A model generated the notes under the pieces. The model was not told where the DNA came from. It made no database searches and saw nothing but the letters and a program-made list of their open reading frames with translations. This document shows, piece after piece, positions 14,024-37,550 of a DNA stretch of 64,000 nucleotides. Each line of letters starts with the position of its first letter. Position 1 is the first letter of the stretch. Source of the DNA: Betaproteobacteria bacterium (GTDB lineage Bacteria > Pseudomonadota > Gammaproteobacteria > Burkholderiales > SG8-41); the NCBI GenBank assembly GCA_025363435.1, contig JANYDY010000051.1, forward strand, positions 1 through 64,000. The letters are read 5' to 3'. A program made the translations under genes and the position numbers.

Positions 14024-14584
14024 ATGAACAAGTTCCGTCTGATGTTTGCCGCAGCGCTGCTGGCCGCCAGCCCGCTGGCCTTTGCAGTCGATAGCGTTTC
14101 CTTCGAATACGGCAAATCCGATTCCTCGAATTCCAGCGTGAAAATGTACCGTCTGGGCATGCAATGGGATTGGGAAAAGAAGCTGATCGAATTCGGCGGT
14201 TGGCATATCGGCGGTTTCTGGGATGTCAGCCTCGGCTATTGGGACAACAAAAGCCCGTTCCAGACTGCCGGTTATTCGACCGCCAATCTTGAGGAAATCG
14301 GCTTTACACCGACCTTCCGCTTGCAGCAGAACACGATTTCCGGTATTTCGCCTTACGCCGAACTGGCAGTCGGTTTTCATTTCCTGTCGCAAACCTATGT
14401 CGGCGCGCAACGCGTGTTCGGCAGCAGCTTTCAATTCGGCGATCATGTCGGCGCCGGCGTTCGTTTCGGTGACAAAGGCCAGTACGACATCGGTTATCGC
14501 TACCAGCATCTGTCGAACGGCGGTCTCAAGCAACCGAATCAGGGGATCAATTTCAACCAGATCCGCCTGCAGTACCATTTCTGA
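14024..14584 (+). CDS. pagL: lipid A 3-O-deacylase (PagL family)
   Basis: 186-residue outer-membrane beta-barrel. A signal peptide (MNKFRLMFAAALLAASPLAFA) precedes a chain of amphipathic strands ending in QYHF, the aromatic C-terminus recognised by BamA. The PagL active-site motif YRYQHLSNGG gives His162 and Ser164. Family members remove the 3-O-linked acyl chain of lipid A, softening TLR4 signalling and altering outer-membrane permeability. By my alignment the acidic member of the triad falls on Asn176 (QGIN), which may matter for activity. GAGGAAC precedes the ATG. It stands alone downstream of ffs. Confidence 0.85.
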   Translation: MNKFRLMFAAALLAASPLAFAVDSVSFEYGKSDSSNSSVKMYRLGMQWDWEKKLIEFGGWHIGGFWDVSLGYWDNKSPFQTAGYSTANLEEIGFTPTFRLQQNTISGISPYAELAVGFHFLSQTYVGAQRVFGSSFQFGDHVGAGVRFGDKGQYDIGYRYQHLSNGGLKQPNQGINFNQIRLQYHF

Positions 14585-14670: not shown

Positions 14671-16236
14671 GTGACCCAAGTCCTTGCCCGCAAATGGCGG
14701 CCCAAATCGTTTGCCGAACTGGTCGGGCAGGAGCACGTCGTCAAAGCCTTGAGCAACGCGCTGACGCAACAGCGGCTGCATCATGCTTATCTGTTTACCG
14801 GGACCCGCGGTGTCGGTAAAACCACGCTGGCGCGCATTATTGCCAAAGCACTGAATTGCGAAACCGGCGTCACTGCCGAACCCTGTGGCAAATGCCGTGC
14901 GTGCACCGATATTGACGCCGGACGCTACATTGATCTGATCGAACTTGATGCCGCCTCGAACACCCAGGTCGACAACATGCGCGAACTGCTCGAAAACGCC
15001 ATGTATGCGCCGACTAGCGGACGTTTCAAGGTTTATATCATCGACGAAGTGCACATGCTGTCGCGCAATGCATTCAATGCGATGCTGAAAACACTTGAAG
15101 AACCGCCGGGGCATGTCAAATTTATCCTCGCCACCACAGATCCGCAGCGCATTCCGGTCACCGTGTTGTCGCGCTGCCTGCAATTCAATCTGAAGCAGAT
15201 TCCGCAGCCGCAGATCCGCGGTCAGCTTGCCAAGGTGCTGGAGCTCGAAAAAATTCAGTTCGAGGACGAGGCGCTGGGCCTGCTGGCGCGCGCCGCCCAC
15301 GGCAGCATGCGTGACAGTCTCTCGCTGCTTGATCAGGCGATCGCCCACGGCGGCGGCCGCGTTGAAACGGCAGGCGTGCGCGCCATGCTCGGTAGCGTCG
15401 AGCGTGAATATCTGCGCGATATTCTTGGAGCGCTGCGTGATGCCAATGGCGCCACGCTGATCGGCGTCGCCGACCGCATGGCCGAACGCAGCCTCTCGTT
15501 TGAAAACGCCTTGCAGGATATCGGCGCGCTGTTGCACCGTGTGGCGCTGGCGCAAGCGATTCCTGCGGCGATCGCGGATGATGATCCCGACCGCGCTCAT
15601 CTTATTGAACTGGCATCGGCGTTCAGCGCTGAAGAAATCCAGTTGCTCTACCAGATTGCGCTGCAGGGACGACAGGAAATCGGTTACGCGCCTGACGAAT
15701 ACGCTGGCTTTACGATGACGCTGATGCGTATGCTGGCGTTCGCGCCGTCCGCAGGCGGCGCGGTGCAACCGCGCGCGGCGGCGGCGACGACCTCACCGGC
15801 CCCGGTTGCAGCGCCGGCAGTTGCGGCCGCTGCAATCGCAAAAAAAAAGACCGCTATTGACGGCGACTGGACTGCCTTCGTCGGCGGTCTGCCGCTGGCC
15901 GGCATGGAACGCATGCTCGCGCATAATTGCGAACTGGTGTCATGGCAGGACGGCAAACTCGTGCTGCGCGTCGCCCATGCACAGCGGCATCTGAACAATC
16001 GCTCCTATCAGGAACGGCTGCAACAGGCGCTGGAACAACATATCGGGGCGAAGATCAAACTCGAGATCAACGTCGGCCAGGGTGACGGTAAAACCGTCGC
16101 TGCGATGCGCGACCGCGAACAGAAGGAGCAGATGAGCGAAGCTGCCAAGGCAATTGACGGTGACCCGTTCGTGCGCGATCTGATTGAAAACTTCGATGCG
16201 CGGGTGCTTCCCGCATCGATCAAACCCATGCAATAA
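14671..16236 (+). CDS. dnaX: DNA polymerase III subunits tau/gamma
   Basis: 521-residue clamp-loader ATPase (tau form). Walker A is [11 protein letters not shown], the zinc module is CGKCRAC, and Walker B is [10 protein letters not shown] with LLKTLEEPP-type sensor sequence (MLKTLEEPP). An Ala/Pro-rich linker around residues 365-390 leads to the tau-specific C-terminal region that contacts polymerase and helicase. The start is GTG. Inside the linker an A9G run at 15840-15849 can cause a -1 slip that stops after 396 codons, giving a gamma form. ybaB and recR follow, the standard dnaX-ybaB-recR order. Confidence 0.96.
15840..15860 (+). promoter_or_regulatory. dnaX programmed -1 frameshift / slippage site
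   Basis: Nine A residues and a G (15840-15849) contain the heptamer A AAA AAG in the zero frame, the same slippery sequence used in E. coli dnaX. After a -1 slip the ribosome reads GAC CGC TAT and then TGA at 15858-15860, adding Asp-Arg-Tyr to residue 393. The product would be a 396-residue gamma subunit without the tau domain. RNA-polymerase slippage on the A run is an alternative mechanism. Seen in the sequence; not shown to operate. Confidence 0.75.
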
Positions 16237-16250
16237 GCAAAGGAGTCGCA

Positions 16251-16580
16251 ATGAATATGAAAGGCGGTCTTGGCGGTCTGATGAAACAGGCCCAGCAGAT
16301 GCAGGAAAACATGAAGCGTATGCAGGAGCAACTGGCGACTGTCGAGGTTGAAGGGCAGGCCGGCGCCGGCATGACTAAGGTAGTGATGACCTGTCGTTAC
16401 GATGTCAAGCGCGTCATCATCGATGACAGCCTGCTCAAGGACGACAAGGAAATGCTCGAGGATCTGGTTGCAGCGGCGTTTAATGACGCGGTGCGTAAAG
16501 TCGAGGCCACCACACAGGAAAAACTCGGCGGCATGACAGCGGGCATGGGCTTGCCGCCCGGTTTCAAGATGCCGTTCTAG
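16251..16580 (+). CDS. ybaB: YbaB/EbfC nucleoid-associated protein
   Basis: 109-residue DNA-binding protein of the YbaB/EbfC family that coats the nucleoid and often affects gene expression. The glycine-rich start ([20 protein letters not shown]) and the central helix with [13 protein letters not shown] are typical, as is the [11 protein letters not shown]-like tail (here [15 protein letters not shown]). AAGGAG lies seven bases before the ATG. Position between dnaX and recR is the conserved arrangement and suggests co-transcription. Confidence 0.95.
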
Positions 16581-16635: not shown

Positions 16636-17244
16636 ATGAAAAACCCTTCCAGTCTCGAAGAACTGATCGACGCTCTGCGCTGCCTGCCCAGCGTCGGGCC
16701 GAAATCCGCGCAGCGCATGGCCTATCATCTGCTGCAGCGCGACCACGCCGGCGCCGGCCGTCTGGCGCGCGCGCTCGGCGGCGCGCTGGAATTGATACGC
16801 CATTGCGAACGCTGCAATACATTCACCGAGGAAACCGTTTGCGCGCTGTGCCGCTCGCCGCGCCGCGACAGCCATCAGCTCTGCGTGGTGGAGACACCGG
16901 CAGACATGCTGATGATGGAACAGGCCGCCTGTTATCAAGGCCTGTATTTCGTGCTGATGGGGCGGCTGTCGCCGCTCGACGGCGTTGGGCCGAAGGATAT
17001 TCATCTCGACCGTTTGCTCGCACGTGCGACCGACGGCATCGTTACGGAGGTTATCGTCGCCACCAATTTCACCATCGAAGGCGAGGCGACTGCGCATTAC
17101 GCCGCCGAAATGCTGGTCGCGCGTGACATCAAAGTCAGCCGTATCGCGCGCGGACTGCCGGTCGGCGGCGAGTTGGAGCACGTTGATAGCGGCACGCTCG
17201 CGCAAGCTGTATTCGAACGCCGCGCCATCGGGCCCTCGGCATGA
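16636..17244 (+). CDS. recR: recombination protein RecR
   Basis: 202-residue recombination mediator of the RecFOR pathway, loading RecA on gapped DNA. An N-terminal helix-hairpin-helix ([17 protein letters not shown]), a four-cysteine zinc motif ([16 protein letters not shown]) and a Toprim domain ([26 protein letters not shown]) follow in the usual order and length. Its stop overlaps the next start by four bases (ATGA), so translation of the rluB gene is probably coupled. Confidence 0.96.
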
Positions 17245-21944: not shown

Positions 21945-23138
21945 TTAATTGCGGGCAATAAAATCGGCGATGCGCTGTGCCGCCTCGGTGCACTCAGTCG
22001 TCGAGGCGACCAGCGCAACACGCACAAAATTGCGTCCTGGATTGACGCCGCGGGCTTCGCGCGCGAGGTAGCTGCCGGGCAGGGCGGTGACGTTGAATTG
22101 CTCATACAGTTCGCGCGTAAATTTCGTGTCGTCGCGGCGCGCATCTATCCACAGGTAAAAACCCGCATCCGGCATCCGCACGCCCGGCGTGTTGCCGAGT
22201 ATTTTCATGGCAGTGGCAAATTTGTCGCGGTACAGGCGGCGATTTTCGACGACATGAGCCTCGTCGCGCCACGCCGCTATGCTCGCCGCATGAATCGGCG
22301 GACTCATCGCGCAGCCCTGATAAGTGCGGTAGAGCAGGTATTTTTTCAAGATCTGCGCGTCGCCGGCGACAAAACCGGAACGCATGCCCGGCGAATTCGA
22401 GCGCTTCGACAAGCTGGAAAACACCACTAGCCGCGGGTAGCCGCTGCGCCCGAAATGCTGCGCCGCCTGCAATGCGCCGATCGGCGGTTTTTTTTCGTCG
22501 AAATAAATTTCCGAATAACATTCGTCCGAAGCGATGACAAATCCGTAACGGTCGGAAAGATCAAACAGCGCCTTCCATTCGTCCATGTCCATCACGCGGC
22601 CGGTCGGATTGCCTGGCGAGCAGACGTAAATCAGTTGCGTGCGGCGCCAGACTTCATCGGGCAATTGCGTGTAGTCTGCGGCAAAATTGTTCGCCGGCAG
22701 ATTGTGCAGAAACTGCGCTTCGGCGCCGGACAGCAGTGCCGCGCCTTCATAGATTTGATAAAACGGGTTCGGCACCACAACCGCCGGCTTCGCTTTGCTG
22801 CGATCGATGATAGTGTGCGCAAACGCATATAGGGCCTCGCGGCTGCCGTTGACCGGTATGATTTCCGTCTGCGCGCTGATTTCCTTCAAGCCGTAACGCT
22901 GTTTGAGCCAATCGGCAATCGCAATCCGCAAACCTTCGGCGCCCAGCGTAGTGGGATAGACGGCGAGGCCGTCGAGGTTATCGGTAATCGCCTGACGAAT
23001 GAACTGCGGCGTCGGGTGCTTAGGTTCACCGATGTACAGGCTGACCGGCTTGAACTGCGGATTAGGCACAGCCCCCGCCAGCAGATCATTCAGCTTTTGA
23101 AAGGGATAGCTCTGCAGGCGGTCGAGATCGGGATTCAT
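21945..23138 (-). CDS. dapC: succinyldiaminopimelate aminotransferase
   Basis: 397-residue PLP-dependent class I/II aminotransferase. VFSSLSKRSNSPGMRSGF contains the PLP lysine, and SPGNPTGRVMD the asparagine loop; SDECYSEIYFD is the Asp/Tyr pair. Start MNPDLDRLQSYPFQKL is typical of betaproteobacterial DapC, so the ATG at 23138 is preferred to one at 23153. It converts N-succinyl-2-amino-6-ketopimelate using glutamate. Adjacency to dapD supports the assignment over other class I aminotransferases. Confidence 0.92.
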   Translation of the reverse strand: MNPDLDRLQSYPFQKLNDLLAGAVPNPQFKPVSLYIGEPKHPTPQFIRQAITDNLDGLAVYPTTLGAEGLRIAIADWLKQRYGLKEISAQTEIIPVNGSREALYAFAHTIIDRSKAKPAVVVPNPFYQIYEGAALLSGAEAQFLHNLPANNFAADYTQLPDEVWRRTQLIYVCSPGNPTGRVMDMDEWKALFDLSDRYGFVIASDECYSEIYFDEKKPPIGALQAAQHFGRSGYPRLVVFSSLSKRSNSPGMRSGFVAGDAQILKKYLLYRTYQGCAMSPPIHAASIAAWRDEAHVVENRRLYRDKFATAMKILGNTPGVRMPDAGFYLWIDARRDDTKFTRELYEQFNVTALPGSYLAREARGVNPGRNFVRVALVASTTECTEAAQRIADFIARN

Positions 23139-37522: not shown

Positions 37523-37550
37523 AAAAAAGGGGCTAACGCCCCTTTTTTTT
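37523..37550 (+). terminator. intrinsic terminator/attenuator between rpsB and tsf
   Basis: AGGGGC and GCCCCT form a stem around TAAC, followed by eight T residues and preceded by six A residues. Because tsf follows in the same operon and has no obvious strong promoter of its own, this probably acts as an attenuator that lowers tsf relative to rpsB. A tsf promoter downstream of the hairpin is the alternative. Confidence 0.85.

Follow-up and report, generated by a model that had tools for sequence, protein, structure and literature searches.

Does the run of nine A's inside the dnaX gene of this betaproteobacterial genome serve to produce a second, shorter clamp-loader protein, and would it be RNA polymerase or the ribosome that slips on it? 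The gene lies in the window, i.e. the whole stretch of 64,000 nucleotides that was analysed. It matches the gamma/tau family profile TIGR02397 with 440 bits (cut-off 250) and provides a single open frame for tau, with no zero-frame stop at the site. The locus contains the following features:

14671 to 16236, + strand: dnaX, with a GTG start and a TIGR02397 match, encoding a 521-residue tau as its zero-frame product
15806 to 15994, + strand: open +1 frame with its stop ending at 15994; a form of 440 or 441 residues is predicted if mRNAs with A8 or A11 are made
15840 to 15848, + strand: run of nine A's, read directly, the conserved core of the site (the next base is G at 15849)
15843 to 15849, + strand: in-frame heptamer A_AAA_AAG, a possible ribosomal -1 slip site, the same as in E. 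coli dnaX
15849 to 15860, + strand: tail of the -1 frame, GAC CGC TAT TGA (Asp-Arg-Tyr-stop), the end of the predicted gamma

Around the run, the dnaX frame reads GCA AAA AAA AAG ACC GCT ATT GAC. The -1 frame meets its stop (15858-15860) after three codons, so that the shifted product would have 396 residues and the C-terminus KKKDRY, whereas the +1 frame stops after 47 codons. A sequence-only reading of this DNA had named the A9G, the in-frame A AAA AAG, the -1 tail Asp-Arg-Tyr-TGA, the 521-residue tau and the 396-residue gamma, all of which proved exact to the base. It had also placed the site in the middle of an Ala/Pro linker, which has to be corrected: Pfam assigns residues 232-356 to domain III and 395-516 to tau domain V, leaving a linker of about 38 residues with the site at its C-terminal end, directly before domain V. 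On the 3' side, dnaX is followed by two genes that we take, from their translations, to be ybaB-like (16251-16580, +) and recR-like (16636-17244, +), the usual neighbours of dnaX. Just 5' of dnaX (14024-14584, +) lies what is presumably the gene of a small, secreted, beta-barrel-like protein resembling the PagL lipid A deacylase family.

An A9 run by itself is insignificant. Dinucleotide shuffles of the window contain 0.92 A9/T9 runs on average, with at least one in 51 of 100 shuffles, and since a shuffled window is expected to hold about one such run, its presence alone proves nothing; on the comparative data, it is conservation that lifts the dnaX site above chance. The source genome assembly (2.97 Mb, 91.7% complete) has six A9/T9 runs, and those located inside open frames of more than 200 codons are sense A9 runs in dnaX and in a gene that we take from its translation to be RmuC-like, and a sense T9 in a gene likewise presumed to be Kelch-repeat-like. 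The latter appears as an A9 on the + strand (L115, G000:C51:4867-4875) and falls into the signal-peptide-like start of the - strand gene. Other A/T runs of at least eight in the window amount to only two T8, at 22488-22495 and 37543-37550. The RmuC-like A9 (L117, G000:C85:58955-58963; GCG CAA AAA AAA ATC) provides a control: it is kept in none of 13 other genus genomes, despite the retention of the QKK residues in 14 of 14 further rows (13 genomes, one with two rows; the fragment from G007 misses the site).

For dnaX, 15 genomes of the genus were compared, including the window's own, and the region is present in 13 of them (G003 gave no dnaX match and G004 a fragment only). In all 13, a slippery A run stands in frame, its codon phase unchanged, and a -1 stop follows two to four codons on. 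A9G is found in 11, and the exceptions, L008 with A6G and L013 with A7C, both retain an in-frame heptamer and the -1 stop; A_AAA_AAG stands in frame in 12 of the 13. The linker around the run varies freely, and the codon preceding it is GCA, GTA, TTA, TCA or ACA. The sequence-only reading had staked its claim on the run being conserved in close relatives, and here the run and the near -1 stop are indeed kept together throughout.

Beyond the genus, the comparison took in 246 distinct dnaX loci (counting fragments), which came from a family search (74 genomes), from order genomes, from 80 named matches and from E. coli K-12. The order sample outside the family (loci from 102 of 291 genomes) consists mainly of top-scoring matches and is therefore biased to near relatives. 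A FastTree tree was built from E. coli and the 165 loci whose linker was covered and whose identity reached 53% or more. Loci were flagged as carriers if they had a heptamer in frame and, within eight codons, a -1 stop (45 of 165 tree rows). Seven were removed by hand, namely the E. coli control (L200) as well as L110, L076, L230, L247, L125 and L231, whose runs are A7-A8, AT-rich or located elsewhere, leaving 38 carriers that span five family codes.

The window's family is represented by 58 of 74 genomes, and the signal occurs in 25 of these 58, as A9 in 23. By genus code, carriers make up 13 of 13 in g1, 2 of 3 in g2, 3 of 5 in g4, 1 of 1 in g6 and 6 of 7 in g8, and the signal is found in 0 of 29 in g3, g5, g7 and g9, with one A7 run elsewhere set aside. 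Outside the family, it is carried by f37 (3/3), f15-g23 (2/5, one of them A8), f29 (1/1, A8) and f50 (7/7), while f15-g81 has it in none of three and most other families read are without any. On the tree, presence and absence change 17 times, a count that includes AT-rich rows later set aside and in which gain and loss are indistinguishable; the dnaX loci of the order interleave with named Nitrosomonas, Neisseria and Tepidiphilus loci, in view of which the window probably comes from an uncultured betaproteobacterium. In f50 (L090, L100, L106, L108, L201, L214, L259), the nine A's stand in phase 1 (CAA AAA AAA ACT), well upstream of domain V, and TGA or TAA follows the run immediately in the -1 frame; this is apparently an independent gamma site.

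Three distant, lower-GC dnaX genes (L150, L142, L169) also have a linker A9 with a -1 stop within one or two codons, where the low GC makes chance likelier. An apparent two-ORF dnaX at L083 (G053) carries A9C, its frame breaking upstream of the run; it probably reflects an indel or assembly error and was not counted. In a separate pattern survey (A9 followed by G-[DN]-W), matches came from 13 of the 399 genomes of the order and from 12 of the 369 of the class (3 and 5 for the reversed control pattern). Given that this pattern misses phase-1 and other types, the survey is no measure of prevalence; dnaX coordinates account for six of the 13 matches in the order.

By sequence comparison, the conserved trait is the length of the run and not the identity of the heptamer. 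Nine A's are present in 34 of the 38 carriers, eight in two, seven in one and six in one; none is longer. The A8 phase-0 form, which would keep A_AAA_AAG without the first A, is found in 0 of 38. The 27 phase-2 A9 runs are followed by C in 14 cases (these sites ending in AAC), by G in 12 and by T in one, and the codon before phase-2 runs is TCA, TTA, GCA, GTA, ACA, ATA or CCA. Only 2.8% of the codons in the carriers' linkers begin with AA and 15.5% end in A, yet 27 of 31 phase-2 runs reach nine, and the run persists while the flanking residues change.

The -1 stop tells a similar story. In 141 dnaX genes with GC3 of at least 0.6, the linkers (38,850 nt) contain 33 runs of eight or more A's, and the remainder of the genes (187,788 nt) contains none. 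For these 33 runs, to which no stop criterion was applied, a -1 stop follows within three codons in 31 and within eight codons in all, compared to 6.5% within three codons for 16,602 control codons drawn from these genes. Stops in the +1 frame lie within three codons of 8 of the 33 runs (control 10.7%) and within 12 codons of 17. An alternative count, 36 of 38 carriers, is partly circular, since a -1 stop was part of the carrier rule; L237 (AT-rich, A8) has no near stop. The -1 stop appears to be held in part by synonymous choice: Phe before Asp/Asn-Gly is encoded by TTT in 9 of 9 phase-2 carriers versus 9 of 31 others (p = 0.0002), or in 10 of 10 versus 8 of 30 (p = 5e-5) when L230 is counted as a carrier. 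Comparative evidence shows the A run and the close -1 stop to be under selection together.

The sequence-only reading held that the site mirrors E. coli dnaX, which is borne out for the heptamer. The likeness does not extend to a Shine-Dalgarno stimulator, to a covarying hairpin or to the position of the site, which stands at the end of the linker. A Shine-Dalgarno-like element, which that reading had suggested looking for upstream, is absent 5' of the window's site (-2.3 kcal/mol, z +0.9), whereas the E. coli control scores -7.4 (z -1.45) at 9 nt from its run; nor is there any excess over the 38 carriers (mean z +0.17, se 0.21). It had likewise pointed to conservation of a downstream hairpin, and folding does predict a stem:

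15861 to 15897, + strand: candidate stem 3' of the site, with weak support as a stimulator, predicted by folding and without covariation in the genus

The segment 15855-15930 folds with z -2.49 (1 of 200 shuffles as stable), but compensatory changes are found at 0 of 11 pairs among 12 of the 13 genus sequences, the thirteenth (L014) being identical to L010 there. Measured against synonymous shuffles, downstream structure in the 38 carriers has a mean z of -0.56 (se 0.20) in the third of three scoring windows, with 6 of 38 at or below -2, and the structure at our own site (z -2.0 to -2.5) ranks among the better carriers. Within the family, carriers exceed non-carriers in downstream structure in one of four scoring windows (p = 0.0045, uncorrected and not phylogenetic). 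The proven E. coli stem reaches only -0.8 to -1.3 where scored (-1.2 and -0.8 in two of the scoring windows used for the carriers), so the structure test is low in power. A search of 15500-16300 against Rfam returned three unrelated matches, all under the gathering score. ARAGORN, run on 33 tRNA places, called one tRNA-Lys (UUU) and no CUU, with two places uncalled and the genome incomplete.

Production of gamma from dnaX by slippage or frameshifting is already established, and by slipping, the window's dnaX very probably yields a shorter clamp-loader protein next to tau, as in E. coli and Thermus; that a gamma-making site exists in this gene is a claim we make with high confidence. The A9 would act as a programmed frame-change site, through which dnaX would give both tau (521 residues, by plain reading) and gamma (396 residues, ending in KKKDRY), the latter keeping domains I-III and lacking domain V. 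We propose that RNA polymerase slips on the nine A's and adds one A, and that the resulting A10 mRNAs would be read normally into the -1 stop. The runs of the genus mostly end in A_AAA_AAG, and ribosomal -1 slipping could add to the same gamma. The mass spectrometry of the gamma end that the sequence-only reading had suggested cannot separate the two mechanisms, since a ribosomal -1 slip on A_AAA_AAG and an A10 mRNA both give KKKDRY. However, as the +1 frame meets no stop for 47 codons, slippage also predicts a form of about 440 residues: mRNAs with A8 or A11 would give proteins of 440 and 441 residues, which simple -1 ribosomal shifting would not.

We assign a probability of roughly 0.55 to RNA polymerase slippage being the main driver of gamma production from the window's dnaX, and thus lean to the transcriptional side of the mixed mechanism that the sequence-only reading had put forward. 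Slippage is favoured because it is run length that is conserved rather than heptamer identity: at either end, the conserved run exceeds what one heptamer would need, nine A's recur in two phases, and the next base is free. Nine nucleotides is about the length of the RNA:DNA hybrid of RNA polymerase. According to the accessible text of Baranov et al. (PMC1088944), many genomes also bear signs of selection against A/T runs at a length of nine. The strongest competitor is ribosomal -1 frameshifting as in E. coli, acting on the tandem heptamers A_AAA_AAA and A_AAA_AAG/C, with polymerase slippage being incidental; we consider this possible, if doubtful. It would account for the in-frame heptamer of all 38 carriers (which the selection rule required), L008 and L013 with their shorter runs included, and for the stop kept in a single direction, which Antonov et al. 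(PMC3711429) describe, in the text accessible, as a mark of ribosomal shifting. The weak excess of downstream structure and the one tRNA-Lys (UUU) suit ribosomal slipping too; together with the two genus exceptions and the one-way stop, they count against slippage. Heptamers alone, on the other hand, would not call for phase-2 runs to extend to nine where AA-initial codons are so rare, nor for the lack of A8 phase-0 carriers, and the phase-1 A9 likewise runs past its heptamer. Neither a Shine-Dalgarno stimulator nor a covarying stem was found, and about half of the phase-2 A9 sites end in AAC. A_AAA_AAC is a weak ribosomal slip site in E. coli as far as described in PMC5009743, so that A9C lineages would be poor ribosomal sites, although IS elements are believed to make use of it (PMC4066793, accessible text).

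Two further explanations dispense with a purposeful gamma. Ribosomes sliding on iterated AAA might cut tau output or trigger loss of the mRNA, which we regard as improbable: robust truncation has been described for A11, and a single frame keeps the stop, which comes after complete domains I-III, as in known gamma. Least probable of all is chance, with a lysine-rich linker or AT drift and no programmed event. Shuffling does lead one to expect about one A9 per window, and several families and genera have none, but chance sits poorly with the confinement of the 33 runs in GC3-rich genes to the linker, with the co-conserved -1 stop, with the loss of the RmuC-like control A9 and with a run that stays as its flanking residues change. 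Returning to polymerase slippage, a broader version can be offered more tentatively, and we place it somewhat below even odds: slippage at a run of exactly nine A's may be the main gamma route in a number of betaproteobacterial lineages, with many gains or losses and at least one new origin in another phase and at another place in the linker, and may yield three DnaX proteins (about 521, 440 and 396 residues here). Three proteins would be expected in that case since the insertion frame alone has its stop close by.

Our literature search, which covered titles and the openings of abstracts and left most subscription papers outside its scope, returned no treatment of an A9 site in a betaproteobacterial dnaX. 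The importance of the short gamma for bacteria has long been argued. Here, selection keeps a nine-A run, of a kind that many bacteria avoid in their genes, together with an out-of-frame stop inside a drifting linker, and relatives from the same family without the run offer natural presence/absence pairs to ask for the role of gamma. Likewise, the A9G, A9C and phase-1 lineages provide a ready comparison of transcriptional and ribosomal slippage within one gene.

How does the site relate to known dnaX systems, as these are described in the accessible text of the papers cited? The two-ORF dnaX genes of Chlorobium and others share a poly-A run (7-10 A's), for which transcriptional realignment has been proposed; in these genes, however, recoding makes tau (PMC3711429), whereas in the window tau results from plain reading and recoding would make gamma. 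E. coli dnaX (PMC5009743, PMC3711429; K-12 gene, L200), whose type includes Neisseria (PMC3711429), has in common with the window the in-frame A_AAA_AAG, a near -1 stop and tau by plain reading. It differs in having A6G only, a 5' Shine-Dalgarno-like AGGGAG and a proven stem, while the window has its A9 directly before domain V and shows neither such a 5' element nor a covarying stem. In Thermus thermophilus, transcriptional slippage in dnaX uses nine A's (Larsen et al., 2000, as described in PMC1088944 and PMC5009743), and the resemblance comprises a sense-strand A9 after the clamp-loader domains, tau by plain reading and a shorter gamma from a changed frame. Near stops close both other frames in Thermus, whereas in the window a close stop is found in the -1 frame alone and the +1 frame runs for 47 codons; moreover, slippage has been shown in Thermus and is inferred for the window. 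We took as the hallmark of a Thermus-type site that length is kept whatever the phase or the next base, and this is what the carriers display: 34 of 38 have exactly nine A's, in two phases and followed by C, G or T.
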